A DNA stretch of 64,000 nt from Natribaculum luteum. Its GTDB lineage: Archaea; Halobacteriota; Halobacteria; Halobacteriales; Natrialbaceae. Below the pieces are notes generated by a model. That model searched no databases, was not told the origin of the DNA, and worked only from the letters and a program-made list of their open reading frames with translations. Positions 8,758-58,893 of the stretch are shown one piece after another. Numbering within the stretch: position 1 is the first letter of the stretch; each line of letters starts with the position of its first letter. A program made the position numbers and the translations under genes. The stretch lies in NCBI RefSeq assembly GCF_023008545.1, contig NZ_CP095398.1, forward strand, positions 682,001 through 746,000, given 5' to 3'.

Positions 8758-8800
8758 TTCCCAACTGGTGTGAGAGCTGAAGCTAAAGCGTTGGTCTCAT

Positions 8801-9947: not shown

Positions 9948-11126
9948 GTGAATGTGTTCAGCGTCCCTCAACCAGACGGTGTTCTTTCAGACTCAGACGT
10001 GAAAGATCTAGCGGAAGACGTCATTTGCCAGCTCCCTTTGCCAGGGATCGAGGGCTCGCCCCTCGATCCCGGCGATATCTGGGCGGTCGTCATTCTTGCA
10101 GCAGTCAATCAGACCTCCATCTGGGAGACGTGCAAGGACAATGACAACGCTGTCTGTGACGATACTGTCATGGACTGGCTCCATACGCTCAACCGAGAGT
10201 GGCTTGAGCAGGTTGCTAACCGCCTTCTCAGGGAGGTAGCGATGACGATCCTCGACCCTAATCGGTCGAGGATCGTCTCCATTGACTTCGTCGATAATCC
10301 CTACCACGGAACGTACGCCGATGAAGAAGGTGAACTCTGCCGCATGCACGCGAAAGACGGAACAACGACGTGCCACCGGTACTGCACAGCGTATCTCGTC
10401 TCGAACGGAAAGCCAGTGACGTTGGCGATGACGTACGTCCGTAGCGATGAGAAAGAGGCCGACGCGGTCGAGCGCGTCCTCGACCGCGTCGAAGCCTATC
10501 CCTTCGACATAGAGCTTCTGTTGGCTGATCGTGGCTTCTACAACGAACGTATTCTGCGTCGTTCTCAGGAGATTGCTGCGACTGTCGTTCCCGTCCAAAA
10601 GAAGGGAGAACACATGAAGGAAAAGTTGGACACGCACCGTTCGTACATGACAACCTATCGGATGTACAAAGACCGCGAGCGGGAACTAGAATTCCCGCTC
10701 GCGGTCGCTGTGTCCTATCACGCTGGAGATCGAGGGAAAAGCGGGGAGGTTGTGCGAGGGTATGTGGCGTGCGATCTGGCTGATCGCACGCCCAAGCAGG
10801 TCGAACAGCTGTACCGGAAACGGTCAGCGATTGAAACAAGCTACCGGGTGTTTCGCCAAGCACGAGTGGTAACGACGACACAAGATCCAGTCGTCCGCTT
10901 TGCATTCGTCTTGGTCGGGTTCTTGCTGGAGAACCTCTGGCTCGTGCTTCGGTGGGCGGTCGTCGCCCGCCCGCGTCGGGGCGGGCGCGACCTGCCCGAG
11001 GAATTCACGTTCAAGACCTTCTCTGACTGGATCAGACATGCATTAGAGGAAGAGCTAGAGCGGAGTTGGGAGATCGAGATGAACGGAACAGGTGTGCCAG
11101 AAGCATACGCGCCGGCCACGGGCTGA
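9948..11126 (+). CDS. ISH3-family transposase
   Basis: A 392-aa DDE transposase. Asp in VSIDFVDNPYHGTY (near 104), Asp in LLLADRGFYNERIL (near 190), and the Y-x2-R-x3-E block LYRKRSAIETSYRVFRQ (near 285-300) of the IS4/ISH3 type are present. The C-terminal hydrophobic segment FAFVLVGFLLENLWLVLRW is characteristic of haloarchaeal ISH3 proteins. The reading frame is complete, but the IS5 insertion separates it from the left end of the element. A C-terminal relic of a similar transposase occurs at 48395-48892. Confidence 0.9.
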   Translation: MNVFSVPQPDGVLSDSDVKDLAEDVICQLPLPGIEGSPLDPGDIWAVVILAAVNQTSIWETCKDNDNAVCDDTVMDWLHTLNREWLEQVANRLLREVAMTILDPNRSRIVSIDFVDNPYHGTYADEEGELCRMHAKDGTTTCHRYCTAYLVSNGKPVTLAMTYVRSDEKEADAVERVLDRVEAYPFDIELLLADRGFYNERILRRSQEIAATVVPVQKKGEHMKEKLDTHRSYMTTYRMYKDRERELEFPLAVAVSYHAGDRGKSGEVVRGYVACDLADRTPKQVEQLYRKRSAIETSYRVFRQARVVTTTQDPVVRFAFVLVGFLLENLWLVLRWAVVARPRRGGRDLPEEFTFKTFSDWIRHALEEELERSWEIEMNGTGVPEAYAPATG

Positions 11127-11311
11127 CGCCAGCCCGCGGCCTTGGGCAAGCTCTTGGTGAGCAACAGCATTCGCCTAGAACAGCGTATCTCAGCCTTCTT
11201 ACTTCACTTCTCCTCATCCGTGGATTCTATTTCCTGTTCACTCGGTTACCACACCGGCATTCGCTCTGTTCGTCAATGACTCAGCACAGTTCACGAAGCG
11301 ACTTTCGGGAA

Positions 11312-12040
11312 GTACCGATCGTTGATGTTCCACAGTTCATCCGCTGAAACGTCCGGTGCACCGACTGCGTCTCGGTATTCCTTTGGCGGGACGTACGGCG
11401 AGTGCGTTTCCATGAAGTGTGCGAAAACGAACAGCGGTTGGTCGTCGGGCGCCTTGTCGATGTACTCGAGCGTGCGATCGACGATCTCGTCAGCCGTGGG
11501 ATGCGGCGGCGTCCGCTCCTCTACCAGTCGATACATGCGTTCGACTGCCCGGTAGAGCGGCCCGTCCTGATCCAATCGTTCGTAGACGCTAGATTTCAAC
11601 GAATTGATCCGCTGACGGAACGGTGAGACGGCGATTTCGGCGTCCGACTCGACGTTGAACGATCCGATTTCTTCGTTGATGACCGTCTGCTCGCTATCGA
11701 AGTAGACATCAAAGCCACGATCCCACCCAAATCGCGTATGCAACTGCGCGTTCGCGTTGATACCCAGCGTCGTATACCCTGCCTCGTCGAACACAGTCGA
11801 GAGCATCGTCCGGTGGTCCGTCAACTGTGCGTAACCACCGTACATCAGCGGATAGGAAGAGGTCAGAATCCCTGGAAAGCTCTTACGCGTCCCTGTTCCC
11901 GTCGCTATCGCCTGTGTACAGGCGGCTCCTGAATCCGCGAGCGCGTCGAGCGTCGGTGTAGTTTCGATAGGATATCCGTTCTGTGAGAGCCGGTCGTACC
12001 GCAGTCCATCAGCAGTGAACAAGAATACATGATCGTTCAT
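11312..12040 (-). pseudogene. Sulfatase-superfamily gene, N-terminal half (interrupted)
   Basis: From ATG 12040 the protein starts MNDHVFLFTADGLRYDRLSQNGYPIETTP, the metal-binding N-terminus of haloarchaeal sulfatases (Asp in TADGLR). It continues through the nucleophile region GTGTRKSFPGILTSSYP and the ETHSPYVPP motif near 215, then is cut at NINDRY by the ISH3-type element. The second half is at 8012-8757. An IS66 copy is inserted directly against the start codon: its duplicated target (12038-12045) contains the ATG. The native promoter is therefore displaced by 1.6 kb as well. Confidence 0.88.
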
Positions 12041-12045
12041 ATTGG

Positions 12046-13622
12046 GTAGTTGGATAGCGATTTGCCGTCAGACCGATTTCGTAGCAGTCTCATGAATGGT
12101 CTCTCAATGGTGAACCAAGTGTGTCGCTGGGGATTGGCGGATCGCCGGAATCGATAGATTCCGCGATCCGCACCGAGAACAGTACGCATCTCCGCCAGCA
12201 ACTCGTAGTCCAGAAGCTTGAGAACCGTCTTCTCCGTCGCCAACTCGCTGCACAGCAACAACAGATCGAACAACTTGAGACTCGCCTCAAGAGGTACGAA
12301 AACCCAAACACACCACCCAGTAAGCAGGGTGGTGCGGCTGGATCACCTGGCAACGACGACAGCGACGAGGAAAAGGACGAAAACCAGGAAGACGACGCTG
12401 GCGGCGACGCTGACGCCGCCAGCGACTCATCCCCAGGACGTAGCGAAGGTCACGAAGGAACAACTCGACCGCCACCTGAACCAGAGGAGACTATTCGAGT
12501 CGATCAGGGATATTGTCCAGATTGTGAGCAAAGCCTCTCTAACCCGGACAGCTACGTCTCACGAACTGTTATCGACATTCCTCTTCCCATTCCAACCACT
12601 GTCATCGAGTACAAACTCGGCAAACACCGCTGTTCCTGTGGAAACGAGGTCGTTGCTGAACATCCTGACTGCCCGGAAACCGGGCGGTTTGGGCCGAATA
12701 TCATGGCCCAAACCGCCCTCGGTAGGTTCCATCAGCGACTTCCGAACCGTAAACAGGCGGAGCTGTTTGATTGGGAACTCGATATTCCCATCTCTCATCG
12801 GACGATCTACAACCTGACCAAGCGGGTCGCAGACCGGCTGCGACCCGCGTATGACGATGTCAAAGCCCGTATTCAGGAAAGTGACGTCGTCTACTGCGAT
12901 GAAACGGGATTTCCTGTTGACGGAGAGCAACACTGGGCGTGGACGTTCGTTACTGACGAAGAGGTGCTGTTCTGGGTTGATGAGAGTCGTGGAAGCCAGG
13001 TGTTAGAGGACGTCCTCGGCGAGGAATTCGCCGAGGACTCGACGCTCAGCTGTGACGGTTGGTCAGCGTATCCGAGCTATCACACGAAGCTCCAGCGGTG
13101 CTGGGCACATCTGTTGCGGGAGGCGGAGTACGTTGCTGAACGGTACGAGGAAGCAGAGAAGTTATCTGCGGAGTTACACGCTCTCCATGACGATTTAACG
13201 GCGTTCGACAAGGAGGATCCATCCGCCTCCGCCCGCGAGCAGAAGCGGGCGGAGGCGTCGTTACATCTGGAAGGCCTGATCAGGGAAGACTATGAGGCAC
13301 AGGAGGTCCAGAAGCTGATCGAGAAGATCAGGAACGGGTTAGGCCACTGGCTGACGTTCGTCACAGAGCCAGACGTCGATTCGACGAATAATCGCGCAGA
13401 GCGCGCTCTGCGCGAGCAAGTTGTGCTGCGGAAGATGTTCCGGACCCTCCGCTCAGCCGAAGGGGTCCAGATTCACGAGACGATCACGACCATGTTAGCC
13501 ACGTGGAAACGGCGAGGACTAGATCCGCCTGAACAGCTCCAGTCCATCCTCGGTGGGAAAGAACTCAGTTCAGGATGAGAGGTATCACTGATCGGTGAAT
13601 CCTGGTCACGCTATCCAACTAC
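12046..13622 (+). mobile_element. IS66-family element, copy 1
   Basis: 1577 bp with terminal inverted repeats GTAGTTGGATAGCG / CGCTATCCAACTAC. It is flanked by a perfect 8-bp target duplication CATATTGG (12038-12045 and 13623-13630), the length expected for IS66. It is inserted at the start codon of the sulfatase relic. It has the same length as copy 2 (46519-48095). Confidence 0.95.
12121..13578 (+). CDS. IS66-family transposase, copy 1
   Basis: A 485-aa transposase. It has a leucine-rich coiled coil at about residues 20-60 (LRQQLVVQKLENRLLRRQL), the NPNTPPSKQG linker, an acidic low-complexity stretch (75-110), and a zinc finger (CPDCE near 132 with HRCSCGNE). The DDE core follows: YCDETGFPVDG near 260, LSCDGWSAY near 315, and NNRAERALREQVVLRK near 430-445. 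This is the single-transposase form, with no accessory tnpA/tnpB reading frames inside the element. The start is taken at 12121 because it retains the coiled coil; it is a non-ATG codon (GTG). The gene appears intact. Confidence 0.95.
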   Translation: MSLGIGGSPESIDSAIRTENSTHLRQQLVVQKLENRLLRRQLAAQQQQIEQLETRLKRYENPNTPPSKQGGAAGSPGNDDSDEEKDENQEDDAGGDADAASDSSPGRSEGHEGTTRPPPEPEETIRVDQGYCPDCEQSLSNPDSYVSRTVIDIPLPIPTTVIEYKLGKHRCSCGNEVVAEHPDCPETGRFGPNIMAQTALGRFHQRLPNRKQAELFDWELDIPISHRTIYNLTKRVADRLRPAYDDVKARIQESDVVYCDETGFPVDGEQHWAWTFVTDEEVLFWVDESRGSQVLEDVLGEEFAEDSTLSCDGWSAYPSYHTKLQRCWAHLLREAEYVAERYEEAEKLSAELHALHDDLTAFDKEDPSASAREQKRAEASLHLEGLIREDYEAQEVQKLIEKIRNGLGHWLTFVTEPDVDSTNNRAERALREQVVLRKMFRTLRSAEGVQIHETITTMLATWKRRGLDPPEQLQSILGGKELSSG

Positions 13623-28076: not shown

Positions 28077-29921
28077 TCAGCACTTTGAATATACTCTCAT
28101 TTTTCCGTTTGTATAGAGCTTACTTCGGCTCGAGTTTATACTGTGTTCATCTCTAATAACATGATTTGCTGATAGTTGTCCGTTGTCTTCAATGACCATA
28201 TGCCCTCGGCGATCAAGTAAGACACCGTCAACCATGAGCGGAACTGAGCAAAGTTGTTGATCCCGCGTAATAAATCGTGGGTCCGGTGGTCTTACTCTCC
28301 ATTCAGCAATTTCGATTCCGCGATAGTAGCTATAGACAGTCTGACTCATCGCGGCACTGAGTTTATGATTCCATGTCCAGTTGGCTGCCTGATACTGCTC
28401 CTGCGTAAGATAGTTCATCGCTGCGTCCGTATTTGCGAGTGAATTATCTCTCGTATAAATGTCATTAGACGCAGTTACTACCCCACCTGTAACCAACAAC
28501 AGTGCAAGGACAACGCGTTGTACCTGAGAACGTTGCCATAGAGCACATAGACCTATACTGCTAATTAATGCAACAAATGGAATTCCGTATCGGGAGATCC
28601 GGAACAGATTGAGGCCTGCTGCGATCGATTCAAGAAGATACGCTGGGCCTGGGAAATATACAGTCGATAGTGGAATCAGTGCAGTAAGAATTGTTGTCCA
28701 CATCACTCGATTTTGATTGAGAACTGCCGAGTCATTTCGCAGAATGACGATAGTTCCGGCAATCACCAATCCCAAAATAATGGATGACCCAATAAAAGTC
28801 AACAACAGCGGGACCGGAGATTGGAGCAAGCCAAAGTTACTCACTTCTGTTGGAGCACCTCCAAATAGAGCACGAATCCGTACAACGATTACGCTCATTC
28901 GAGCTGCGCTATTCCAAAATACGAATACTGCATATGCCGCAATGATTCCCAGCGATTTCTTCTTGGTCAGTGTTGTCAGATCACTCCCAGAGGCGAAGAA
29001 ATAAGCGAATGTGACCAGTATAACCACTCCAAATAACCAGATATGTGCGAGTTTATGAAGCCAGTTGAGGTATGCAACCCCGACTAGTAATACGATGGAG
29101 TGTCTTAGGGAAAAATGCCGTTGTGAGTTGAGATCGTATAAAACATATGCAAGTGGAAGCATGGTTAGGAGTGCGTAACTAGTTGACGCTATCGAATATG
29201 TGGCAGATTGATTGAACTTGTATAGGAATGGTAGCAGCGTTGCAGGGACTACTGTGTTATATTTGGAGAGAAGTTCTGTCCGGCGAACAAGGAATGCGAG
29301 AAGCCACATTGAGGCGAGTGCAACTGATACGCCGTAGATAACGTATGCAGATCGCGCTGGTAGGCCTGTAACAATCCCATCAATCGCGCCGCTTGCAAAG
29401 TAGGCAGGGAAACGTTGATAGCTAGCAGTGGGCTCTACCTGTTTACTAATCATTGAATTTTTAATCGCAGCCCAGACCCTCCCACCATCACCGGATCCGG
29501 TCCAAAGGACTGATGTGTATGTTGTCGCCAAGTGGAATGTTGCATAAGCGATACTTGATAATATTAACGATGTTATCTGTTTCCGCGTCGATAAAGCCAA
29601 AAGAACTGGTATGGAGAACGCAATGGCTATCGCGACGAACCAGTATCTCGGCCGAGGCTCAAGATGAGAAGTGGCTACCGAAATGGAAATTGAGGCGGCA
29701 AATATAGTTATCAATATCTTTATCACTTTTCTGTTGAATAGATGGTTGCCTGATGATCGTTTGCTTCGATAGAAAATAAGCGGAGTAAGTGAGAGTGGCA
29801 CACATGCGTAAACGGAAAGAATGGCGAATGTTTGAAAGCCGGCTATAAATAGGACAATTGGAATACAAATGGAAAAAGCGGCAAGTAGAATTGAAATGAT
29901 TCTAAGGTAACTCTCTCTCAC
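28077..29921 (-). CDS. Large multi-pass membrane protein, probable GT-C-like glycosyltransferase
   Basis: 614 aa with 12 or more TM helices through about residue 500, then a soluble C-terminal tail (about 500-614). Within the first third is FHLATTYTSVLWTGSGDGGR, and later FLYKFNQSATYSIASTSYALLTMLPLAYVLYD. The topology and position in a glycan island resemble archaeal GT-C or DUF2206-like membrane proteins that use lipid-linked sugars. No DD/E-x-D motif can be pinned with certainty, so the enzyme class is an inference. Codon and base composition are AT-richer than the flanks, suggesting horizontal gain. Confidence 0.7.
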   Translation of the reverse strand: MRESYLRIISILLAAFSICIPIVLFIAGFQTFAILSVYACVPLSLTPLIFYRSKRSSGNHLFNRKVIKILITIFAASISISVATSHLEPRPRYWFVAIAIAFSIPVLLALSTRKQITSLILSSIAYATFHLATTYTSVLWTGSGDGGRVWAAIKNSMISKQVEPTASYQRFPAYFASGAIDGIVTGLPARSAYVIYGVSVALASMWLLAFLVRRTELLSKYNTVVPATLLPFLYKFNQSATYSIASTSYALLTMLPLAYVLYDLNSQRHFSLRHSIVLLVGVAYLNWLHKLAHIWLFGVVILVTFAYFFASGSDLTTLTKKKSLGIIAAYAVFVFWNSAARMSVIVVRIRALFGGAPTEVSNFGLLQSPVPLLLTFIGSSIILGLVIAGTIVILRNDSAVLNQNRVMWTTILTALIPLSTVYFPGPAYLLESIAAGLNLFRISRYGIPFVALISSIGLCALWQRSQVQRVVLALLLVTGGVVTASNDIYTRDNSLANTDAAMNYLTQEQYQAANWTWNHKLSAAMSQTVYSYYRGIEIAEWRVRPPDPRFITRDQQLCSVPLMVDGVLLDRRGHMVIEDNGQLSANHVIRDEHSINSSRSKLYTNGKMRVYSKC

Positions 29922-30212
29922 TATGGTAGATTGCTTTTGTAAAAGGGGTTGAAATAGTTTACGGATAGATAGTGACTAATTAGTAGTATATAAACTTAAT
30001 AATATAGGAAATGGATTTAACATATATTTTCTAAAATAAAAACAAGTATTCTATATTGAGAACCACCAACTATAGTTTATAATATAAAACATCAATTTAT
30101 CCCATATCATACTTACTAAACCGTATAATATTCACCACCGGATTGGGAAAATAATGTTGGTGTCCATAGAATGTTTATTTTAATCATATATGGGGGTAAC
30201 AAACAGTAGTAG
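29922..30212. other. Very AT-rich spacer
   Basis: Rich in TATA-like words (ATAGTTTATAATATA near 30072). No gene. The same 15-bp word recurs at about 38686 on the other side of the 30-38 kb block. Confidence 0.6.
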
Positions 30213-31511
30213 TCAGATATACCCCAATTCTTCAAGACGAGCCTCGGTCGCTGCGTCAATACTCACATCCTTGTCCGAGGCATTTGATTTAGCTTTCTCA
30301 ATCGAGATGTCAAATTCGTCCTGAGCCCAAGCTGGTAATTCGTTGCTTTCGGAGTCCCAGACGACCATCTGATCATCAGACCAGACAGCTCGTATTCCTC
30401 GGTTCCAGTGGTCTTTATCTGCTGGCGGTTCTGGTCCAGCAGCCATTCCAAGCGTTTCAGCTGGTGCTACCGCGCGATCAATCTCTGGGATCTCTCCGTC
30501 AGCCAGCGATTGCACAATCTTGGGAAGGTCCAAATGGCTTACCAATTTTTCGACAGCGCCAACGTTGGTAGGCGGGTTAATGATATCTAGGGGAACATGA
30601 CATAGTGCATCAGAGAGACTACTTGTGTGTCCCCAGAGATTATCTTCTTCAGGATAGCCAAGATTTTCACCGTGATCCGATGTCACAATAATCGTAGTAT
30701 TAGGGAGGTCTTCCGCTAGTTCTGCGATTTTCCGTGTTACATACTCTACCGTTGCTCGGTGGTACTGCCGCATAAGTACTTTATCTCTTTTGGCACATTC
30801 ATTGTATATAAGGTCCCAACGATCAACATGGAGTGATGACCAGCCTTTTTTATCGACGAGGTTCTCGTCCATTCCTCGAAAGAAACTGTACGGCTCATGG
30901 GTCTCCATCAGATTTGCAAACCCAAATACGGATTTGTCACTCCGCTTAACTTCTTGCTTTAGGAGATTAAGCGCAAGCGTTGCACCATCATCAAGAGGTT
31001 CGGGGATGGGAGTACCCATCAGTGTCTTCTTTGCCTGTGCCGCACCTCCATTAAGGAGACTCTTCACTATCGACTGACTCTTTATTGATTCAGCCAGAAA
31101 ACCGAAATGCATACTAATGCCCTCACGGTCGGTGTTTCGGAAATAATCTGTTGCATCAAGCCCATCTAGGAAGGGCTGGTAACGAGGTACATCGACAAAC
31201 CGGTCAAATATTTTATTAAATCCGTATGAGGAGCTAGCATACACATTTGAAGAGACACCAAACGTTCTTCCATCCCATTGATCACAGATTGTATCGAAAT
31301 CGGTCAGATCTAGATTTATGTTATGAGCATGGATCCCGTGTTGACTGGGCAACATTCCAGTGAAAATACTTGGATGGCTTGGGACACTCCAACAAGACGC
31401 AGCGCGTGCATTTTCAAACCGTAGTCCTGCAATATCGCGTGTGTGGGACACCGAATCATACACATCCTTTCTCGCCGAATCTAGGGCGATTAACAATACG
31501 TTCTGGCTCAT
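30213..31511 (-). CDS. Sulfatase-superfamily hydrolase/transferase
   Basis: 432 aa, cytoplasmic in appearance. MSQNVLLIALDSARKDVYD supplies the first metal-binding Asp. The nucleophile region ASCWSVPSHPSIFTGMLPSQHG matches the sulfatase C/S-x-P-S-R signature, but with Ser as nucleophile and His in place of Arg. ETHEPYSFF and TTIIVTSDHGENLGYP (DHG metal site) follow, then LGHTS-type WGHTSSLSDALCHVPL. The C-terminus LEELGYI is typical of haloarchaeal family members. Such proteins may be sulfatases, phosphodiesterases or phosphoglycerol-type transferases acting on glycans; the altered motif leaves activity open. Confidence 0.88.
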   Translation of the reverse strand: MSQNVLLIALDSARKDVYDSVSHTRDIAGLRFENARAASCWSVPSHPSIFTGMLPSQHGIHAHNINLDLTDFDTICDQWDGRTFGVSSNVYASSSYGFNKIFDRFVDVPRYQPFLDGLDATDYFRNTDREGISMHFGFLAESIKSQSIVKSLLNGGAAQAKKTLMGTPIPEPLDDGATLALNLLKQEVKRSDKSVFGFANLMETHEPYSFFRGMDENLVDKKGWSSLHVDRWDLIYNECAKRDKVLMRQYHRATVEYVTRKIAELAEDLPNTTIIVTSDHGENLGYPEEDNLWGHTSSLSDALCHVPLDIINPPTNVGAVEKLVSHLDLPKIVQSLADGEIPEIDRAVAPAETLGMAAGPEPPADKDHWNRGIRAVWSDDQMVVWDSESNELPAWAQDEFDISIEKAKSNASDKDVSIDAATEARLEELGYI

Positions 31512-31927
31512 TAACTGATGTTAGATCAGGAATACAAGCCATATATCCCTTGGGATATTATTTGAGGTATGAATTGTCGCAATAGTTGATCCAGTAGGAT
31601 CGTCTGCAAGGATTCCGTTTTTACCCCATACGTCCCCGCAGATGAAAATGCTCTCGCTATATACATTTAGCTGGATACCTACCGAATTTTCCGCTCTCGC
31701 GCTTACGGACAACGTTCTTTCTAACCATCTACAATCCTAGTTCTATACACATTGTTGACTATCCATGAGATTGCCACCCCATCTAAATATAATTACTTAT
31801 AATTAAATTTACTATGTGGTTTAAAACATAATAAAATACTATAAAATCACACTATATTTTAATGGGCTAGTGTAGTTACACTCCCAGAAGAGAAAGACTA
31901 AATACTTGGACTTATCGATAACCGCAC
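31512..31927. other. Divergent AT-rich promoter region
   Basis: This lies between the two divergent sulfatase-superfamily genes. The stretch 31780-31860 is almost entirely A/T. A short frame 31521-31712 (minus) has no support. Confidence 0.55.
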
Positions 31928-33178
31928 ATGCTACAGACTATCGATATAGAAAATATTGTAATTTTAGTTGGGGATGCTATTCGATGGGATTCTGCATTCG
32001 ATCAGTTGTCAGAGTATGGTCCAACAATAAAGACAGTCGGCGCATCGCTCCATACGCCGACTTCGTTCACAACGATGCTCTCAGGAACACAACCAACCGA
32101 GCACTCGGTAACTGGTTTTCACCAACAATTTCGGGGAGAAACTCATATCTTTGATGTCCATTCACATACGACGGCATGGAATACCGGCGAAGTGAGCGGG
32201 TGGCTTAGTTCGAAACAGGCCATATTCGGTAAACAACCGCAGAAAAACCTCGCCGAGATGGAGCCGCCGTTTATCTGGGTCAATCGTGATTTTGGCGGGC
32301 ACGCACCCTACAATCGTTATAGTTCTGGAGAGACCCCAACAACGGATGATGGGAAGAGCTATCACGAGATCACCTCGCAGGAATATCTTGATCGGTATGC
32401 CGGTGATGAAGCGCGAATGCGACGAGAGTATGAAGCAGGCGCTAGCGCCTTCATTGATCGTGTAGACGACTATCTCACTCAGTTAGAGGAGCGCGGACTT
32501 CGGGACGACACACTCGTAGTCGTCACATCGGATCATGGTGAACTCCTCGGCGAGTATGGCCAAATCGGCCATGACTATCCAGCAGTTCCAGAATTAGTCT
32601 ATGTCCCTACGACATTTATCCATCCGGATTTAGATCCTGGCCAACAAACGGGCGGAGTGATGCGACATATCGATTTACTTCCGACCGCTTATGAGGCAGC
32701 GGGGATAGAGACGTCGGTTTCGTTCCCCGGTCGGTCGCTCTTCTCCGAGCCCCTTGCCGAATACGGGGTGAACTACTACAACCGATCGATCTCTGACTAT
32801 GTCTTCCGTCTGCTCCATGATTCGGTAGGAAAGGGAGAGTATGCCCGTCACTTCCCAGACATTCAATTCGAACTGGCAAGCGTATGGGATGAAGAAGGCG
32901 GATATGTATTCAATCGGACGCCGACGGTCGGAAAGCATCTGTTCTATCTCTTTCGTGTCTTTATGCTTGGCCAGGGGAAACACATTCGCCGAACGAAGTC
33001 GTATCGGCGAGCATATAAGACGCTGACCGAGGCAGAGTCTGTCTACGGCTCGCCGGATTTCACCCGGGAAACAGCATTAGAGATCCTAACGGACTTGCCA
33101 ACGACGGATGCCAAGGAGACGGACCAAGAGTATAGCGATGAGCGAATTGAGCATTTAAAGGATCTGGGGTATATGTGA
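31928..33178 (+). CDS. Sulfatase-superfamily protein (second intact member)
   Basis: 416 aa. N-terminal VILVGDAIRWDS carries the metal-binding Asp. The nucleophile region is SLHTPTSFTTMLSGTQP, where Thr replaces the usual Cys/Ser. Metal-site motifs LVVVTSDHGELLGEYGQIGHDYP (DHG) and HIDLLPTAYEAAG follow. LKDLGYM is the usual C-terminus. It differs clearly from the 30213 product, so the two are old paralogues rather than a recent duplication. Its stop TGA overlaps the next ATG (TGATG at 33176-33180), which couples it to the GT4 gene. A glycan-modifying role is inferred. Confidence 0.87.
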   Translation: MLQTIDIENIVILVGDAIRWDSAFDQLSEYGPTIKTVGASLHTPTSFTTMLSGTQPTEHSVTGFHQQFRGETHIFDVHSHTTAWNTGEVSGWLSSKQAIFGKQPQKNLAEMEPPFIWVNRDFGGHAPYNRYSSGETPTTDDGKSYHEITSQEYLDRYAGDEARMRREYEAGASAFIDRVDDYLTQLEERGLRDDTLVVVTSDHGELLGEYGQIGHDYPAVPELVYVPTTFIHPDLDPGQQTGGVMRHIDLLPTAYEAAGIETSVSFPGRSLFSEPLAEYGVNYYNRSISDYVFRLLHDSVGKGEYARHFPDIQFELASVWDEEGGYVFNRTPTVGKHLFYLFRVFMLGQGKHIRRTKSYRRAYKTLTEAESVYGSPDFTRETALEILTDLPTTDAKETDQEYSDERIEHLKDLGYM

Positions 33179-34344
33179 TGGACGTCCTATATATCCTCTC
33201 GCAGAGTGAAAGTGGGCTGCCCCATTATACGGCACAGTTAGCGAACGCCGTCGCGAAAGAGGCGAACGTTACAGTTCTTAAACCATCGGAGACAACTGCC
33301 GATGATGTCTTTTCCGACGACGTTCGGACAATAAACGCCTTCCAGCCGATGGAGCTCTCATTGGTCGAACTCGCGCAATGGAACATCTCGCCGAAAGCAG
33401 TCGCGGATGGCTTTCTCTCGTACCGCAACCTCACGAAGGTTCCGGATCTCGACCCTGACGTTGTCCATACCCCGACAAACCTCTTCCCACAAGTCCAACT
33501 TGCGGCGAAGTGGTACGGGATCGGTGATTCGTATCCGTTTATCGTCACGTATCACGAGGTATTCCCAAACAAGCTCCTCCCCGACCGTCCCCTCCCTGGA
33601 ATCGTTCATAACTGGATCAATCGGGGGCTTCCGTCGCCAGCCGAGGAAAAGACGATCGTTCATACAGATGCCGCAAAGGCAAACCTCGTTGAACGTGGTC
33701 GACCATCGGATGATGTCCATGTCATCTCACACCCGAGCTATGACATGTTCGATAATGCTGAGATGAAGACCAGAGAGGAGAAAAATACCATTCTTTATTT
33801 CGGGACTATTGTTCCGTATAAAGATATTGATCTCTTTACGAGTGCAGCGGTGAAAGCTGCTCAGGAGATTAACGACCTGACAGCGATCATCGCGGGGAAT
33901 GGGGAACTGCCCAAGGCCAGCAGGAAACGGATCCAAAACCACCCTGATCTCTTCGAGGTTCGAACGGAGTTCGTTCCGAACGACGAAGTGGGCGAATATT
34001 TCGAACGGGCACAGGCACTCATTCTCCCTTATCTAAGCCGAGAAGGACAAATGGGCCATAGCGGTGTCCGCACGATCGGCCACTCATTCGGAGTGCCAAT
34101 AATTGCGACAGATGTAGGCGAATTCAAAGCCCAGATTGCCGACAGTGGGAGTGGTCTCATCGTACCAGAAGGCGATTCAGCAGCATTGGCTTCCGCTATT
34201 CAGCGGCTCTTGGAGAACGATGACGAACGAGAATCGATGGCACAACAATCACAGCAACAATCAAATGAGATCTCTTGGACAGAGTTTGCCGACCGCCATC
34301 TTACTATCTATGAACAGGCAATAGATAGTTCTGATAATAGATAG
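33178..34344 (+). CDS. GT4-family glycosyltransferase
   Basis: 388 aa from ATG 33178 (MDVLYILSQSESGLPHYTAQ), which overlaps the stop of the upstream sulfatase by one base. The N-terminal acceptor domain includes DPDVVHTPTNLFPQVQL. The donor domain includes NTILYFGTIVPYKDIDLF (near 205), LTAIIAGNGELPKAS, FERAQALILPYLSREGQMGHSGV, and then the GVPIIATDVGEFKAQI segment. The last Glu of the E-x7-E motif is replaced by a QMGHSG-type sequence, as in a subset of GT4 enzymes. It forms a two-gene operon with the sulfatase-like gene and converges on the ATP-grasp gene, with only 1 bp between the stops. Confidence 0.9.
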   Translation: MDVLYILSQSESGLPHYTAQLANAVAKEANVTVLKPSETTADDVFSDDVRTINAFQPMELSLVELAQWNISPKAVADGFLSYRNLTKVPDLDPDVVHTPTNLFPQVQLAAKWYGIGDSYPFIVTYHEVFPNKLLPDRPLPGIVHNWINRGLPSPAEEKTIVHTDAAKANLVERGRPSDDVHVISHPSYDMFDNAEMKTREEKNTILYFGTIVPYKDIDLFTSAAVKAAQEINDLTAIIAGNGELPKASRKRIQNHPDLFEVRTEFVPNDEVGEYFERAQALILPYLSREGQMGHSGVRTIGHSFGVPIIATDVGEFKAQIADSGSGLIVPEGDSAALASAIQRLLENDDERESMAQQSQQQSNEISWTEFADRHLTIYEQAIDSSDNR

Positions 34345-34345
34345 C

Positions 34346-35500
34346 CTATCGTAAGATAACTTTTTTCCACATGTCTATGTCGAAGGAATACCGAGCCATC
34401 GCAGCTAGCCGACCGATAATTGGAAGAGGATCATCACTATCGGCGATATCGTAGTACAGATTCTCTGCCTGAAGAGGAAAGAAATCTTGTACGTTTTGTG
34501 TCCGTGCTAGATAGAGCAAATCACCTGGCAAGAGATACCGACACTGGGTCCCAGTTTGATAATCCAAGGTGGCTTCGAGTGGTTTTCCGAGTGCGCACTG
34601 CATGAGGAGCCACGGAAAATCAATGCCAGAATAGTAGGGGAGGTGAAGCGATCCCCAAAACCGGGGGTTGATTTCCATCAATTGTGGTGTATCAGTCCGT
34701 AGATCATTTTTGAACTCCACCATTGCCACGCCTTCCCAGTCGGCATCTAGCAGTAATTTGCGTCCCGCCTCTAGGATTGTTTCATTATGAACGCTTTCTC
34801 GTAGCGTTGAGGGGCCGCCGTTCGGAGGATACTCCCGAAGCCGCTGATAGGCGAATTGGGCTTTCACCTCCCCATCCCAGATGAGAAAAGCACCGCCCAT
34901 CCCACGTCCCTCGACTGGGATTCGTTCTTGGACAAGTGGGCGCGGATACTTCCCATGGACCTCTGCGTATGCTGCACGAAAGGCAGCCGGTGATTCGATG
35001 AACCGAAGACCACGAGATCCGGAACTATCCCGTGGTTTGATGACCACGGGAAACTCCAAGCCATCGATCTGTGAGACAGCATCACCAACGTCTGATGGAA
35101 ACACTGTCTTCGGATGTGGAACCCCGAGACGGGCCGCACGGCGCATTACCGCATCTTTCTGGACGAGTGCATCGAACTTCTTACGGCCAGCAACTGGAAC
35201 AGCCGTATGGTCCGATAACGTCTCAGCATGATGGTTGACCAGGCGGGTGGCTTCATGGCCAATCGGCATCAGGACGTCGATCTCGTGGCGGTCAAGGAAG
35301 CGATGGAGAAACCTGATGAACGACATGGGTTCTTCTTCAGGAGAGGGATAGACTACCGTCCGATCAACGTATTTAGAGGCGAAGGCGGTCGCAAACCGGG
35401 TTGATTCGCCACAGACGACTGTTACATCACGACGGCCGAGCGATCGAACTGCTGCCAGTGCACTTCGAAGTTGGCCATCGGTTACAAAGACGGTCGTCAT
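34346..35500 (-). CDS. ATP-grasp carboxylate-amine ligase-like enzyme
   Basis: 384 aa. The N-terminal Rossmann-like preATP-grasp domain (MTTVFVTDGQLRSALAAVRSLG) is followed by the ATP-grasp core: FPVVIKPRDSSGSRGLRFI near 150-168 (phosphate-binding loop), PLVQERIPVEGRGMGG, MVEFKNDLRTDTPQLMEINPRFWGS near 268-292 (metal and ATP residues E..N-P-R). It forms an acyl phosphate and couples a carboxylate to an amine. It is the last gene of a four-gene operon; ATGA overlaps the PHP stop by 4 bp. It may attach an amino acid or amine to a carboxylated sugar or lipid in the glycan, which is an inference from context. Confidence 0.9.
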   Translation of the reverse strand: MTTVFVTDGQLRSALAAVRSLGRRDVTVVCGESTRFATAFASKYVDRTVVYPSPEEEPMSFIRFLHRFLDRHEIDVLMPIGHEATRLVNHHAETLSDHTAVPVAGRKKFDALVQKDAVMRRAARLGVPHPKTVFPSDVGDAVSQIDGLEFPVVIKPRDSSGSRGLRFIESPAAFRAAYAEVHGKYPRPLVQERIPVEGRGMGGAFLIWDGEVKAQFAYQRLREYPPNGGPSTLRESVHNETILEAGRKLLLDADWEGVAMVEFKNDLRTDTPQLMEINPRFWGSLHLPYYSGIDFPWLLMQCALGKPLEATLDYQTGTQCRYLLPGDLLYLARTQNVQDFFPLQAENLYYDIADSDDPLPIIGRLAAMARYSFDIDMWKKVILR

Positions 35501-36159
35501 TTCTGTCCAACCACCGTCTCTCGCATACTTTTGTACAGCTCCATACCGTAACTCAGCCCATGGAATAGGTAGTATGGCGATTCAGTTCCAAGTGGTTGCA
35601 CCTTGCCCTCCAAGAGTGCCGTTTTGAGAGCGGCAGGGCTGAGCGTTGCCGCTTCAATCCTCGTTCGCGCCCGACCGATCTCCCAGGGTGTGTGTGCATC
35701 GCTCCCCCCAACGGTCGGAAGGGTGCTCTCAGCAGCTAGTTCACCGGCCGCCGCATTGTTCTTCTCCTTGGAACGCGCGTTTATTCTCTCAATGGCGTCC
35801 ACTTGGTGAAGCAACGAGCGGGGATACTCGCTGACTTTCCGATACGGATGGGGAAGGATAGCGATTCCGTCCTGACGATGGATTTCATCGATAGCACTGG
35901 TGAAGGTCGTAGATTCGACCGGCTGATCAAGAAATAGCCCGACCAAGTCGTCGTAATCTGATGTTCGAATCTCTTGGCCAGGGATTACTAGAACTGAATC
36001 TGTCTTCGAGCGGACTTCTTCATGGGCACCATATGCATTATGGTCGGTGATCGCAATGGCATCTAACCCTGCTTGCTCTGCATATCTGGCTACGATTTCC
36101 GGAGATTGTAACGAATCGTATGATTTCGATGTATGGATGTGAAGGTCTGCTTCAATCAT
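35497..36159 (-). CDS. PHP-domain phosphoesterase
   Basis: 220 aa from ATG 36159 (MIEADLHIHTSKSYDS), chosen because it overlaps the deacetylase stop by 8 bp; an upstream in-frame ATG at 36192 is less likely. The four PHP metal motifs are present: DLHIHTS (5-11), AITDHNAYGAHEE, ILPHPYRK near 102-109, and GGSDAHTPWEIG near 153-164. This supports a trinuclear-metal phosphoesterase such as a phosphotyrosine or sugar-phosphate phosphatase. Coupling to the deacetylase and ATP-grasp genes suggests it removes a phosphate from a glycan intermediate. Confidence 0.9.
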   Translation of the reverse strand: MIEADLHIHTSKSYDSLQSPEIVARYAEQAGLDAIAITDHNAYGAHEEVRSKTDSVLVIPGQEIRTSDYDDLVGLFLDQPVESTTFTSAIDEIHRQDGIAILPHPYRKVSEYPRSLLHQVDAIERINARSKEKNNAAAGELAAESTLPTVGGSDAHTPWEIGRARTRIEAATLSPAALKTALLEGKVQPLGTESPYYLFHGLSYGMELYKSMRETVVGQK

Positions 36160-37009
36160 TGGCGACCTCGTTTCGGATTGACTTATGAGCATCGTCTAAC
36201 TGGGCGAACTGATAGTCCTGCGCTTGAAATCGCGAAAGGAGGTTCTGGAGCATCGGAAAACCGTTCTCATTCCGAGCATAAATCATCTTGTAGAACCGGG
36301 GGAGATTTTTGTAGCTTTCTGGGGTGGTGAGATCGTGCATATGGATATTGAGTACAGCAGAAGACGGCGGAGAAAAAGTAAGAAGTTGACTGTACGGAAA
36401 TCCTAGTACTTGGCAATACGAAAGGGCAGTCGGTATACGGACGGTGTCCGAGTAGACAGTAAACGGCAGTTCGATGAGATCAAAGTCGGGGAAGTAGGTC
36501 GGGTTAGTCGCCGCATCTGTATTATTGAAGTGGCCTGGACGCCAAGAGGGAAAGACGCTGGCGTCGAAATCATAATCGTAGGCAACAAGGTGTTCGTAAT
36601 CCGCCGCTCGAATATTCCCATTTGGCAAACGATACCCAACTGGATCGGTCCCGAAGAACTCCCGATATCGGCTTGTACTTTCGGCCACCTCGTATTCGAT
36701 CGACGTTTGATTACGCGGTTTATGTGTGTGAGAATGTGGGTGAAATGACACAGGAATAGATGATGCCCGAAGCGTCTCTACTGCCTCAGGATGTTTGTCA
36801 AGGACCGCCGTCTGGACGAAACAGGTTAACGGTACTTTCTTTTCCTCTAACAGAGCTACGAGCTGATCAGTCGCCTCAAGTGCCTTGTAACTATTCGTAG
36901 GAAGGGCAGTACCGTAGTCACACTCAAAGTCGAGTGTAAGATAAACGGTTTGATCAGTAGGCCATTCGGTAGTGATTGAGGCGTAGTTATCAAGTGCGGC
37001 TGTTGGCAT
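36152..37009 (-). CDS. Polysaccharide deacetylase-family protein (NodB-like)
   Basis: 285 aa. YLTLDFECDYGT near 24-35 carries the first metal-binding acidic pair of the NodB fold. SFHPHSHTHKPRN near 107-120 supplies the H-x3-H-type metal histidines. GYRLPNGNIRAADYEHL near 140-156 is the R-x-P-x-G motif, and VLNIHMHDL near 225-235 the late histidine. All catalytic motifs look present, so metal-dependent deacetylation of an N- or O-acetyl sugar is likely. It lies 32 bp behind the GT2 gene and overlaps the PHP start by 8 bp. Confidence 0.9.
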   Translation of the reverse strand: MPTAALDNYASITTEWPTDQTVYLTLDFECDYGTALPTNSYKALEATDQLVALLEEKKVPLTCFVQTAVLDKHPEAVETLRASSIPVSFHPHSHTHKPRNQTSIEYEVAESTSRYREFFGTDPVGYRLPNGNIRAADYEHLVAYDYDFDASVFPSWRPGHFNNTDAATNPTYFPDFDLIELPFTVYSDTVRIPTALSYCQVLGFPYSQLLTFSPPSSAVLNIHMHDLTTPESYKNLPRFYKMIYARNENGFPMLQNLLSRFQAQDYQFAQLDDAHKSIRNEVAND

Positions 37010-37041
37010 GATGTTAACTGGAATACATTGGTTGTAAGCGG

Positions 37042-38391
37042 TTAGCTATCGAGATGGTGATTTAGTGAATGAAGAATGATCGCCGTAAAGCCTGTGAAAA
37101 TCCCTGCGAGGGCAAAGAAGACGGACATAATCGCCAGCCCAAGCGGAAACGTTCCCGTCGAAATATAGTTCGAGAACGTCCAATATCCAAATCCAAGTCC
37201 CACGAACGCACTTGTGAAGCCTGGCATACCAAGGACCGTGATTGGCCGTTCGCGCTCGACCGTCTTTAGGATATTACTCACGAGCGTAAGTCCGTGAGAA
37301 AGGGGGTGCTGACTGCTCGCGTCCTCCACGTCGTAATTGACCGTTGTTCCGACCTCTTCCACGTCATACCCCTGTGTATGGGCGTGATGGAGGATGTCGG
37401 TGCTGGCGCTCATACGGTCGCCGATCTCGTCGTCAGCCGCCAAGCTCTCGATCGCCTGCCGGTCGTAGGCGCGAAACCCGCTTTGGGTGTCTCCAATCCA
37501 CGACTGTGGTCTCACGACGCCAAAGCTCAGATTTGTCAGCGTGTTCACGACGAACAGGCCGAACCGCCGATAAAGAGGTGCGTTCATCGACCCATCATCT
37601 GTAAACCGGCTCGCGATGACAATTTCGGCCTCGGTGTTCCGTTGAGCCTCAATCAGATTTGGAATATCAGCGGGGTCGTGCTGTCCATCTGCATCGATGA
37701 TGACTAAGTGCGCTGCCTGCCGTTTTTTGGCTTCCTGAAAGATCGTTTTCAGTGCAGCCCCGTAACCGCTATTCGAATCGTGTTCGGCGACGATTGCGCC
37801 AGCATCGCGTGCAAGAGAGGCAGTGTTATCCCCACTTCCGTCGTCAACCACGAGGACGGTATCAGCATAGGCCTGTGCTGATGTCACGACGTCGGCGATT
37901 GTGGCTGCCTCATTGTATGCGGGGATCGCGGCGAGTACGTTGGCTTGTTCTGTGGCGGTCGGAATTCGCTCAAGACAGTACTGGCCGGTCTCCGCAATCC
38001 GTGACGTGCTATTCTCGTAATCGGTTGGAACGCTGACGTCCGGATTGTAAATGAGTCCGGGAGCAGAGTGCGCTTTGGCAGTCGTGACCAGTTCTTGTTT
38101 CAGTTCGTTACGATCCGGATCCGACCCATGTGGCTCTACGATGGAGACGTCCAACTGTTTGGCTAACTCGAGGCCCTCCAAGTCAGGTTGGTTCGCATGC
38201 GTCACGAACACGGTATGTCCCGCTGCGATTGCTCGGAGGATTTCTCTCACCAGCGCATCGGTGTTGTCCGACGTCGCTACAAACCCAACCGCGGGATGTT
38301 GCTGCTTTCTCGATGCAGCATCAGGCGTTTCAAGTATCTGTTCTTTCTGCTGGTTTTTGGTGTTTGAAATCTCCGTGTATTCGAACTCCAT
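37042..38391 (-). CDS. GT2-family glycosyltransferase with extra N-terminal domain and C-terminal TMs
   Basis: 449 aa in three parts. Residues 1 to about 145 form an unusual alpha/beta region with its own Rossmann-like pattern (HPAVGFVATSDNTDALVREILRAI, HTVFVTHANQPDLEGLELA). The GT2 catalytic domain covers about 150-370: VLAAIPAYNEAATIADVV, VLVVDDGSGDNTA, HLVIIDADGQHDPADIP (metal-binding DAD), QSGFRAYDRQ. Two TM helices follow (FGYWTFSNYISTGTFPLGLAIMSVFFALAGIFTGF). The catalytic part resembles dolichyl-phosphate glucosyl/mannosyl synthases such as AglJ-type enzymes. First gene of the 38391-34346 operon. Confidence 0.9.
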   Translation of the reverse strand: MEFEYTEISNTKNQQKEQILETPDAASRKQQHPAVGFVATSDNTDALVREILRAIAAGHTVFVTHANQPDLEGLELAKQLDVSIVEPHGSDPDRNELKQELVTTAKAHSAPGLIYNPDVSVPTDYENSTSRIAETGQYCLERIPTATEQANVLAAIPAYNEAATIADVVTSAQAYADTVLVVDDGSGDNTASLARDAGAIVAEHDSNSGYGAALKTIFQEAKKRQAAHLVIIDADGQHDPADIPNLIEAQRNTEAEIVIASRFTDDGSMNAPLYRRFGLFVVNTLTNLSFGVVRPQSWIGDTQSGFRAYDRQAIESLAADDEIGDRMSASTDILHHAHTQGYDVEEVGTTVNYDVEDASSQHPLSHGLTLVSNILKTVERERPITVLGMPGFTSAFVGLGFGYWTFSNYISTGTFPLGLAIMSVFFALAGIFTGFTAIILHSLNHHLDS

Positions 38392-46518: not shown

Positions 46519-48095
46519 GTAGTTGGATAGCGATTTGCCGTCAGACCGATTTCGTAGCAGTCTCATGAATGGTCTCTCAATGGTGAATCAAGTGTGTCGC
46601 TGGGGGTTAGCGGATCGCTGGAATCGATAGATTCCACGATCCGCACCGAGAACAGTACGCATCTCCGCCAGCAACTCGTCGTCAAAGAGCTTGAGAACCG
46701 ACTTCTTCGTCGTCAGATCACTGCAAAACAACAGCAGATCGAACAACTTGAGGCTCGCCTCAAGCGGTACGAAAACCCAAACACACCTCCCAGTAAGCAG
46801 GGTGGCGTGGCTGGATCACCTGGCAACGATGACAGCGACGAGGAAGAGAACGAAGACCAAGGGGACGACGCTGGCGGCGACGCTGACGCCGCCAGCGGCT
46901 CCTCTCCAGGACGTGACGAAGGTCACGAAGGAACAACTCGACCGCCTCCGGAACCAGAGGAGACTATTCGAGTCGATCAGGGATATTGCCCAGACTGTGA
47001 GCAAATCCTCTCTAACCCGGACAGCTACATCTCACGGACGATTATCGACATACCTCTCCCTATTCCAACCACTGTCGTCGAGTACGAACTCGGCAAACAC
47101 CGCTGTTCCTGTGGAAACGAAGTCGTTGCTGAACATCCAGACTGCCCGGAAACCGGGCGGTTTGGGCCAAATATCATGGCCCAAACCGCCCTCGGTAGGT
47201 TCCATCAGCGACTTCCAAACCGTAAACAGGCGGAGCTGTTTGACTGGGAACTCGATACACCCATCTCTCATCGGACGATCTACAACCTGACCAAGCGGGT
47301 CGCAGACCGGCTGCGACCCGCGTATGACGATGTCAAAGCCCGTATTCAGGAAAGTGACGTCGTCTACTGCGATGAAACGGGATTTCCTGTTGACGGAGAG
47401 CAACACTGGGCGTGGACGTTCGTTACTGACGAAGAAGTGCTGTTCTGGGTTGATGAGAGTCGTGGAAGTCAGGTGTTAGAGGACGTCCTCGGCGAGGACT
47501 TCGCCGAGGACTCAACGCTCAGCTGTGACGGTTGGTCAGCGTATCCGAGCTATCACACGAAGCTCCAGCGGTGCTGGGCACATCTGTTGCGGGAGGCGGA
47601 GTACGTTGCTGAACGGTACGAGGAAGCAGAGAGGTTGTCTGAGGAGTTACACGCTCTCCATGACGATTTAACGGCGTTCGACGAGGAGGATCCGTCCGCC
47701 TCCGCCCGCGAGCAAAAGCGGGCGGAGGCGTCGTTACATCTGGAAGGCCTGATCAGGGAAGACTACGAGGCACAGGAGGTCAAGAAGCTGATCGAGAAGA
47801 TCAGGAACGGGTTAGGGCACTGGCTGACGTTCGTTACAGAGCCAGACGTCGATTCGACGAATAATCGCGCAGAGCGCGCTCTGCGCGAGCAAGTTGTGCT
47901 GCGGAAGATGTTCCGGACCCTCCGCTCAGCCGAAGGGGTCCAGATTCACGAGACGATTACGACCATGTTAGCCACGTGGAAACGACGAGGACTTGATCCG
48001 CCTGAACAGCTCCAGTCCATCCTCGGTGGGCAAGAACTCAGATTAGGATGAGAGGCATCACTGGCCGGTGAATCCTGGTCACGCTATCCAACTAC
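46519..48095 (+). mobile_element. IS66-family element, copy 2
   Basis: 1577 bp with the same terminal repeats as copy 1 (GTAGTTGGATAGCG / CGCTATCCAACTAC) and a perfect 8-bp target duplication CTCGAGTA (46511-46518 and 48096-48103). It splits the PIN gene. It differs from copies 1 and 3 at scattered positions. Confidence 0.95.
46594..48051 (+). CDS. IS66-family transposase, copy 2
   Basis: 485 aa with the same architecture as copy 1: coiled coil (LRQQLVVKELENRLLRRQ), NPNTPPSKQG, acidic linker, zinc finger CPDCEQ/HRCSCGNE, DDE core (YCDETGFPVDG, LSCDGWSAY, NNRAERALREQ). About twenty residue differences from copy 1, many in the N-terminal third (VKELE for VQKLE, ITAKQQQ for LAAQQQQ), show an independent arrival. 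The frame is intact and starts at a GTG. Confidence 0.95.
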   Translation: MSLGVSGSLESIDSTIRTENSTHLRQQLVVKELENRLLRRQITAKQQQIEQLEARLKRYENPNTPPSKQGGVAGSPGNDDSDEEENEDQGDDAGGDADAASGSSPGRDEGHEGTTRPPPEPEETIRVDQGYCPDCEQILSNPDSYISRTIIDIPLPIPTTVVEYELGKHRCSCGNEVVAEHPDCPETGRFGPNIMAQTALGRFHQRLPNRKQAELFDWELDTPISHRTIYNLTKRVADRLRPAYDDVKARIQESDVVYCDETGFPVDGEQHWAWTFVTDEEVLFWVDESRGSQVLEDVLGEDFAEDSTLSCDGWSAYPSYHTKLQRCWAHLLREAEYVAERYEEAERLSEELHALHDDLTAFDEEDPSASAREQKRAEASLHLEGLIREDYEAQEVKKLIEKIRNGLGHWLTFVTEPDVDSTNNRAERALREQVVLRKMFRTLRSAEGVQIHETITTMLATWKRRGLDPPEQLQSILGGQELRLG

Positions 48096-57314: not shown

Positions 57315-58893
57315 GTAGTTGGATAGCGTGACCAGGATTCACCGATCAGTGATACCTCTCATCCTGAACTGAGTTCTTTCCCACCGAGGATGGACTGGAG
57401 CTGTTCAGGCGGATCTAGTCCTCGCCGTTTCCACGTGGCTAACATGGTCGTGATCGTCTCGTGAATCTGGACCCCTTCGGCTGAGCGGAGGGTCCGGAAC
57501 ATCTTCCGCAGCACAACTTGCTCGCGCAGAGCGCGCTCTGCGCGATTATTCGTCGAATCGACGTCTGGCTCTGTGACGAACGTCAGCCAGTGGCCTAACC
57601 CGTTCCTGATCTTCTCGATCAGCTTCTGGACCTCCTGTGCCTCATAGTCTTCCCTGATCAGGCCTTCCAGATGTAACGACGCCTCCGCCCGCTTCTGCTC
57701 GCGGGCGGAGGCGGATGGATCCTCCTTGTCGAACGCCGTTAAATCGTCATGGAGAGCGTGTAACTCCGCAGATAACTTCTCTGCTTCCTCGTACCGTTCA
57801 GCAACGTACTCCGCCTCCCGCAACAGATGTGCCCAGCACCGCTGGAGCTTCGTGTGATAGCTCGGATACGCTGACCAACCGTCACAGCTGAGCGTCGAGT
57901 CCTCGGCGAATTCCTCGCCGAGGACGTCCTCTAACACCTGGCTTCCACGATCTCATCAACCCAGAACAGCACCTCTTCGTCAGTAACGAACGTCCACGCC
58001 CAGTGTTGCTCTCCGTCAACAGGAAATCCCGTTTCATCGCAGTAGACGACGTCACTTTCCTGAATACGGGCTTTGACATCGTCATACGCGGGTCGCAGCC
58101 GGTCTGCGACCCGCTTGGTCAGGTTGTAGATCGTCCGATGAGAGATGGGAATATCGAGTTCCCAATCAAACAGCTCCGCCTGTTTACGGTTCGGAAGTCG
58201 CTGATGGAACCTACCGAGGGCGGTTTGGGCCATGATATTCGGCCCAAACCGCCCGGTTTCCGGGCAGTCAGGATGTTCAGCAACGACCTCGTTTCCACAG
58301 GAACAGCGGTGTTTGCCGAGTTTGTACTCGATGACAGTGGTTGGAATGGGAAGAGGAATGTCGATAACAGTTCGTGAGACGTAGCTGTCCGGGTTAGAGA
58401 GGCTTTGCTCACAATCTGGACAATATCCCTGATCGACTCGAATAGTCTCCTCTGGTTCAGGTGGCGGTCGAGTTGTTCCTTCGTGACCTTCGCTACGTCC
58501 TGGGGATGAGTCGCTGGCGGCGGCGTCAGCGTCGCCGCCAGCGTCGTCTTCCTGGTTTTCGTCCTTTTCCTCGTCGCTGTCGTCGTTGCCAGGTGATCCA
58601 GCCGCACCACCCTGCTTACTGGGTGGTGTGTTTGGGTTTTCGTACCTCTTGAGGCGAGTCTCAAGTTGTTCGATCTGTTGTTGCTGTGCAGCGAGTTGGC
58701 GACGGAGAAGACGGTTCTCAAGCTTCTGGACTACGAGTTGCTGGCGGAGATGCGTACTGTTCTCGGTGCGGATCGCGGAATCTATCGATTCCGGCGATCC
58801 GCCAATCCCCAGCGACACACTTGGTTCACCATTGAGAGACCATTCATGAGACTGCTACGAAATCGGTCTGACGGCAAATCGCTATCCAACTAC
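57315..58893 (-). mobile_element. IS66-family element, copy 3
   Basis: 1579 bp, same terminal repeats as copies 1 and 2, with a perfect 8-bp target duplication TACGCTGC (57307-57314 and 58894-58901). The 2-bp length difference from copies 1 and 2 is the sum of a 3-bp insertion (one extra Ala codon) and a 1-bp deletion. Confidence 0.95.
57359..58818 (-). pseudogene. IS66-family transposase, copy 3 (frameshifted)
   Basis: The N-terminal 290 residues (from 58818) match copy 1 with one extra Ala (DADAAASDSS). A 1-bp deletion (GAGAGTCGTGG in copy 1, GAGATCGTGG here) at about 57950 shifts the frame after LFWVDEI, between the first and second catalytic Asp. The rest continues in another frame (57359-57937). 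Apart from these two indels it is almost identical to copy 1, so it arose recently from the same source. Not functional unless frameshifted. Confidence 0.92.

Follow-up and report, generated by a model that had tools for sequence, protein, structure and literature searches.

In the ArnC/ArnD pathway an enzyme of the NodB kind unmasks the amine of a lipid-linked sugar, the group removed by ArnD being a formyl, and the Francisella FlmF2-NaxD system is a polyprenyl-phosphate amino sugar pathway of the same Arn-like type. In Pseudomonas aeruginosa, GpgS puts GlcNAc on a membrane lipid and GpgD then deacetylates it to GlcN (PMC12713373). The CDR20291_0243-0247 genes of C. difficile, which are adjoined by a FemAB-like gene, include a glycosyltransferase and an ATP-grasp protein reported to be needed for the terminal peptidylamido sugar of type B flagellin, and the ATP-grasp mutant is without that sugar (PMC5207246). 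Among haloarchaea, the walls of Halococcus contain N-glycyl-glucosaminyl bridges and variable amounts of glycine, 100 nmol per mg wall in H. morrhuae and 7 in H. salifodinae (PMC4187196). The literature that we found names no biosynthetic genes for this bridge, and our search of it returned nothing direct on haloarchaeal ATP-grasp/deacetylase glycan loci and no account of any archaeal route by which amino sugars on a lipid are deacetylated and then acylated anew. Here we analyze a four-gene operon of Natribaculum luteum in which a glycosyltransferase and a NodB-type deacetylase are followed by a PHP-type metallohydrolase and an ATP-grasp ligase.

Gene arrangement

The operon was found in a 64,000-nt stretch of DNA (the window) of contig NZ_CP095398.1, a large second replicon in a genome of 4.6 Mb and three contigs. 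According to the list of open reading frames, the genes run on the minus strand in the order GT2 glycosyltransferase (37042..38391, 449 aa), NodB-fold (CE4) polysaccharide deacetylase (36152..37009, 285 aa), PHP/CehA-McbA-type metallohydrolase (35497..36192, 231 aa from the first ATG) and ATP-grasp ligase of the CPS-like/ATPgrasp_Ter class (34346..35500, 384 aa). In the junction sequences the GT2 stop codon and the start codon of the deacetylase (ATG) are 32 bp apart, and the PHP and ATP-grasp frames overlap by 4 bp (ATGA). The overlap between the deacetylase and PHP frames is 41 bp if PHP starts at the first ATG of its frame and 8 bp (ATGATTGA) if it starts at the internal Met codon at 36159 (MIEADLHIHT), which is the likely start because homologues begin near the DLHxH motif. 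The open reading frames and junction sequences thus agree with the sequence-only reading of this DNA in the four genes, their order, the 32-bp gap and the overlaps of 8 and 4 bp.

The stop codon of the ATP-grasp gene lies 1 bp from that of a convergent GT4 glycosyltransferase gene (33175..34344, plus strand; PF00534/PF13439), which is a probable partner in the locus and is overlapped by 4 bp by the gene for an alkaline-phosphatase/sulfatase-fold protein (31928..33178, plus strand; PF00884). A second sulfatase-fold protein (30213..31511; PF00884) and a polytopic membrane protein of 614 aa without a Pfam match (28077..29921) are encoded on the minus strand. The G+C content of the glycan genes in window positions 28077-38391 is 45-55%, with 44.8% in the gene for the 614-aa protein; this is low for a haloarchaeon and suggests that these genes were acquired by transfer.

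Features of the encoded proteins

The GT2 protein matches PF00535 with 83.5 bits. Its best NCBIfam models are PpgS (111 bits) and AglJ (108 bits), both scores being far under the cut-offs, and no equivalog cut-off was reached in the NCBIfam search. The nearest solved chains in the PDB are dolichol-phosphate mannose synthase and ArnC. The protein has an N-terminal region of ~150 aa without a Pfam match and, by eye, two hydrophobic C-terminal segments. It is predicted to be a synthase of the polyprenyl/dolichyl-phosphate-sugar type, and any specificity beyond that is putative.

In alignments of relatives, the catalytic residues expected of the other three proteins are conserved. In the deacetylase (PF01522, 44.5 bits) Asp 27, Glu 29, His 92, His 96, Arg 127, His 223 and Asp 226 are invariant in 24 relatives; no obvious signal peptide was seen by eye, and the score against the XrtA/PEP-CTERM model TIGR03006 is 35.1 bits, which does not reach the cut-off of 276.2. 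The PHP protein matches PF02811 and PF13263 and, with 86.2 bits, passes the cut-off of 80 for NF038032 (CehA/McbA), under which its relative in locus L053 remains with 65.7 bits. The metal-ligand residues His 18, His 20, Asp 50, His 51, Glu 74, His 115, Asp 165 and His 167 are invariant in the four cassette copies. The nearest solved relatives of the PHP protein include TM0559, a 5'-3' exoribonuclease and PsfC, and leave hydrolysis of a phosphoester or of another bond possible. The earlier proposal that this protein removes a phosphate is weak, the best-matching family being CehA/McbA, which includes carbamate hydrolases. In the ATP-grasp protein (PF15632, 40.6 bits, above the cut-off) Lys 115, Glu 276, Asn 278 and Arg 280 are invariant in 22 relatives, and a fold search with its model (mean pLDDT 68.5) returned members of the ATP-grasp superfamily, with biotin carboxylases on top. 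Both the ATP-grasp fold and the conserved ATP/Mg residues of carboxylate-amine ligases are present, by which the protein is predicted to be such a ligase.

Neither of the two neighboring sulfatase-fold proteins has the canonical cysteine signature. The position of the sulfatase cysteine in the protein at 31928-33178 is occupied by His, Phe or Cys across homologues and the C/S-x-P-S/A-R signature is absent, while the protein at 30213-31511 has S/T-x-P-S-H in place of the cysteine signature, with Ser in the window protein, and is possibly a Ser-type sulfatase. Since the canonical nucleophile cysteine is absent, sulfate chemistry is not to be assumed for the facing genes, and the suggestion that the facing protein acts on sulfate loses much of its force. 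A relative of the first protein is also convergent to the ATP-grasp gene in L053, and a relative of the second comes after the ATP-grasp gene in L050. The 614-aa membrane protein has relatives in L111, L114 and L115 and more distant ones, the TM644 proteins, in cassette loci; its single-sequence fold prediction (mean pLDDT 41.6) is too poor to use. It is a candidate user of the lipid-linked sugar.

Elsewhere in the window, the minus-strand frames 8012-8764 and 11291-12040 appear by eye to be the C-terminal and N-terminal halves of another sulfatase-fold protein, which transposase-like genes (8895-9710 and 9948-11126) seem to have separated, so that the whole has the look of an IS-disrupted gene. 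Three closely similar copies of an IS66-like transposase, one of them in two frames, were also recognized by eye (12121-13578, 46594-48051 and 57359-58818).

Distribution among Halobacteria

Homologues of the ATP-grasp, PHP and deacetylase proteins were searched for in 292 Halobacteria. For comparison we took 40 loci, all but a few of them selected because their ATP-grasp match ranked high; the others, of lower rank, serve as a contrast. In 13 of these 40 loci a deacetylase lies within 5 kb of the ATP-grasp gene. The co-occurrence of the four families in other genomes, on which the sequence-only reading had been made to depend, was found in the same order in two other haloarchaea, G036 and Haloferax marinum (G245), with a GT2 and a deacetylase from subfamilies other than those of the window. 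The Haloferax marinum deacetylase (L056:7405-8327) is broken by an in-frame TGA into two overlapping frames, and the adjoining PHP and ATP-grasp frames are open. A third haloarchaeon has a PHP-ATP-grasp pair with a convergent deacetylase (L041).

Some PHP protein is present in every one of the 292 genomes. The three best matches of the window PHP outside the window (59%, 40% and 41%) are exactly those that adjoin ATP-grasp genes in G228, G036 and G245, and the next match has an E-value of 4e-32. Deacetylases of the window type are rare, being found in 31 of the 292 genomes at 1e-12. Close deacetylases (E <1e-30) occupy 25 places, and at 12 of these, in G000, G164, G068, G043, G226, G101, G160, G256, G054, G228, G250 and G175, an ATP-grasp of the window's family is encoded no more than 5 kb away; about 0.3 would be expected by chance, by arithmetic from an upper figure of about five ATP-grasps of this kind in a 4-Mb genome. 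With the same families adjacent in other genera, the four-gene grouping is real and more than chance.

The analogous locus L050, probably from Natribaculum breve and so from the same genus, lies like that of the window on a large second replicon and has the same kinds of genes. The deacetylase subfamilies and the gene order of the two loci differ, as if modules had been reassorted.

The ATP-grasp tree was built with 48 rows, and its counts are illustrative because the Halococcus rows were picked for nearness to deacetylases. It contains a clade of ten ATP-grasps (100/100 support), all of them encoded in operons with a deacetylase, and association with a deacetylase recurs in separate parts of the tree, in the pair formed by the window and L041, in the L053/L056 pair and in the Halococcus copies. 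The window/L041 pair nests with L042, L043, L077 and L044. The ATP-grasps closest to that of the window outside the PHP pair are those of L042, L043 and L077 (57-61%), and since these are not in recognizable glycan loci, membership in the ATP-grasp family does not imply glycan work.

A modular cassette

The gene order found most often is UDP-sugar dehydrogenase, GT2, deacetylase, a variable slot, ATP-grasp, DUF354, GT4 and a large membrane protein. By Pfam or profile match, the slot holds a formyltransferase in L051 and L061, a hexapeptide acetyltransferase in L045 and L074, a GNAT protein in L066 and L067, a FemAB-like protein with a second ATP-grasp in L070, and PHP in L053, L056 and the window. 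The most constant part is the adjacency of GT2 and deacetylase, which is kept without an ATP-grasp in L105, L106, L107 and L109. The window operon is best seen as one variant of this modular cassette, in which a GT2-deacetylase unit is joined to a PHP-ATP-grasp unit. Inheritance of the four genes as one vertical unit was considered and rejected: the two units also occur as separate pairs, and the ATP-grasps linked to PHP belong to two separate parts of the tree. Since the slot beside the deacetylase often holds other acyl-transferring enzymes, its natural reading is acylation of the amine that the deacetylase would free. A protein of ~240-310 aa with a DGRHRL-like motif recurs in the glycan loci L041, L051, L066, L067, L070 and L116, and the L066 copy, which was scanned, is without a Pfam match.

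The ten genomes of genus g43 were assigned to Halococcus because the DNA of G236 matches a plasmid gene of H. dombrowskii at 92%. Four of the ten, G209, G236, G255 and G249, carry a DUF3473-type deacetylase close to an ATP-grasp. This locus includes GT2, XrtA-like deacetylase, FemAB-like protein, FkbM methyltransferase and ATP-grasp, adjoined by a flippase in L122 and L123. We assigned the families on the L124 copy and matched the other copies by profile or by eye. The Halococcus version scores 209.5 bits against TIGR03006 (cut-off 276) and 125 bits against TIGR03019 (cut-off 260), both below the cut-off. The chemistry of the Halococcus wall bridge is that expected from a deacetylase and a ligase, in haloarchaea (PMC4187196), and on genomic grounds the locus is a candidate for making this N-glycyl-glucosamine bridge. 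A broader and, in our estimate, unlikely generalization is that haloarchaea share a modular N-acyl exchange for lipid-linked amino sugars, in which a fixed GT2-deacetylase pair would be combined with an exchangeable formyl, acetyl, GNAT, FemAB or ATP-grasp plus PHP step, the Halococcus form with its FemAB, methyltransferase and ATP-grasp genes making the N-glycyl-glucosamine of the rigid wall. The cassette offers a short list of candidate genes for archaeal amino sugar re-acylation and for the Halococcus bridge reported in 1979, and the exchangeable slot would allow surface amide chemistry to be read from haloarchaeal gene order.

Proposed pathway and alternatives

We tentatively propose, at a little short of an even chance, that the product of the operon is a modified amino sugar, carried on a lipid and destined for a surface polysaccharide or a glycoprotein glycan; we infer the substrates, the order of the steps and an amino acid as the acid. 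The GT2 would take an N-acetylated amino sugar from its nucleotide carrier and attach it to polyprenyl (dolichyl) phosphate, and the NodB deacetylase, working at the cytoplasmic face, would strip the acetyl from the sugar now bound to the lipid, in the way that ArnD strips a formyl. The ATP-grasp ligase would then activate a carboxylic acid, most likely an amino acid, with ATP and couple it to the exposed amine, and PHP would serve as a metal-dependent hydrolase whose substrate is either this intermediate or the donor of the acid. Finally, the product would be flipped, and membrane proteins that assemble glycans, for example the 614-aa protein, would use it. The proposal draws on the observed gene order, families, intact catalytic motifs and recurrence of the gene sets. 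Against it are the restriction of the full four-family order to two further genomes, in one of which the deacetylase is interrupted, the scores of the GT2 below all NCBIfam cut-offs, and the location of the closest non-PHP ATP-grasps outside recognizable glycan loci. The logic of the earlier interpretation, from lipid-linked sugar through deacetylation to re-acylation of the amine, gains comparative support from the acyl-transfer enzymes in the slot and from the C. difficile ATP-grasp, and that interpretation appears plausible in outline. Its choice of an amino acid over another acid and its zwitterionic product are conjectural.

The amino acid might instead be joined to a uronic acid of that glycan, through the carboxylate of the uronic acid, with the deacetylase acting on a different sugar and leaving its amine free. 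ATP-grasp enzymes require just a carboxylate and an amine, and uronic acids would be at hand because a UDP-sugar dehydrogenase lies directly upstream of the GT2 in many cassette loci (within 5 kb in 14 of 33 deacetylase entries). No such dehydrogenase was recognized among the open reading frames of the window when these were read by eye, however, and the deacetylase is time and again paired with acyl-transfer enzymes of other kinds, which speaks for the amine; we regard this route as rather unlikely. It is distinctly unlikely that the ATP-grasp and PHP genes only happen to lie within a glycan island and that their proteins make a small metabolite, diffusible or attached to a protein, of the sort expected from Ter-type biosynthetic operons: ATPgrasp_Ter is indeed the best Pfam model and the closest relatives of the ATP-grasp, PHP operons aside, lie away from glycan loci, but the deacetylase, PHP and ATP-grasp frames overlap translationally and ATP-grasps of other clades are repeatedly co-located with deacetylases.

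Improbable to a greater degree is an Arn-like cycle of protection and deprotection, in which the NodB enzyme would remove a formyl rather than an acetyl and the ATP-grasp/PHP pair would do unrelated work. The GT2-NodB-formyltransferase sets of L112 and L113 and the NodB-formyltransferase pairs of L081, L134 and L135 do match the ArnA/ArnC/ArnD trio, but the window has no such formyltransferase and its own genome gives weak matches, the best at 27% identity.

Comparison with known systems

The Arn-type features present in the window are a GT2 of the polyprenyl-phosphate-sugar synthase kind and an adjoining NodB-fold deacylase with intact catalytic motifs. As in ArnC-ArnD-ArnT and FlmF2-NaxD, the GT2 thus adjoins an enzyme predicted to unmask the amine of a lipid-linked sugar. 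Unlike ArnC-ArnD-ArnT, the window has ATP-grasp and PHP genes after this pair, and no ArnT-like transferase was identified by sequence at the locus. The XrtA/PEP-CTERM exopolysaccharide set (deacetylase TIGR03006, FemAB TIGR03019) resembles the cassette in combining a deacetylase with an amine-acylating enzyme in a polysaccharide locus, whereas the window deacetylase scores 35 bits against TIGR03006 and no FemAB gene was noticed adjoining it. In gpgSDF of P. aeruginosa, as in our proposal, lipid-linked GlcNAc is made by a glycosyltransferase and then deacetylated, but the acceptor is phosphatidylglycerol and no re-acylation step is described in the accessible part of the report (PMC12713373). 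The ATP-grasp of the C. difficile type B flagellin locus is of the same general class as that of the window; it belongs to PF13535 and serves a bacterial flagellin glycan, and the accessible part of that report mentions no deacetylase or PHP at the locus (PMC5207246). Set beside these systems, the operon is a variant of known glycan pathways that unmask and re-acylate an amine, not a new kind of system.
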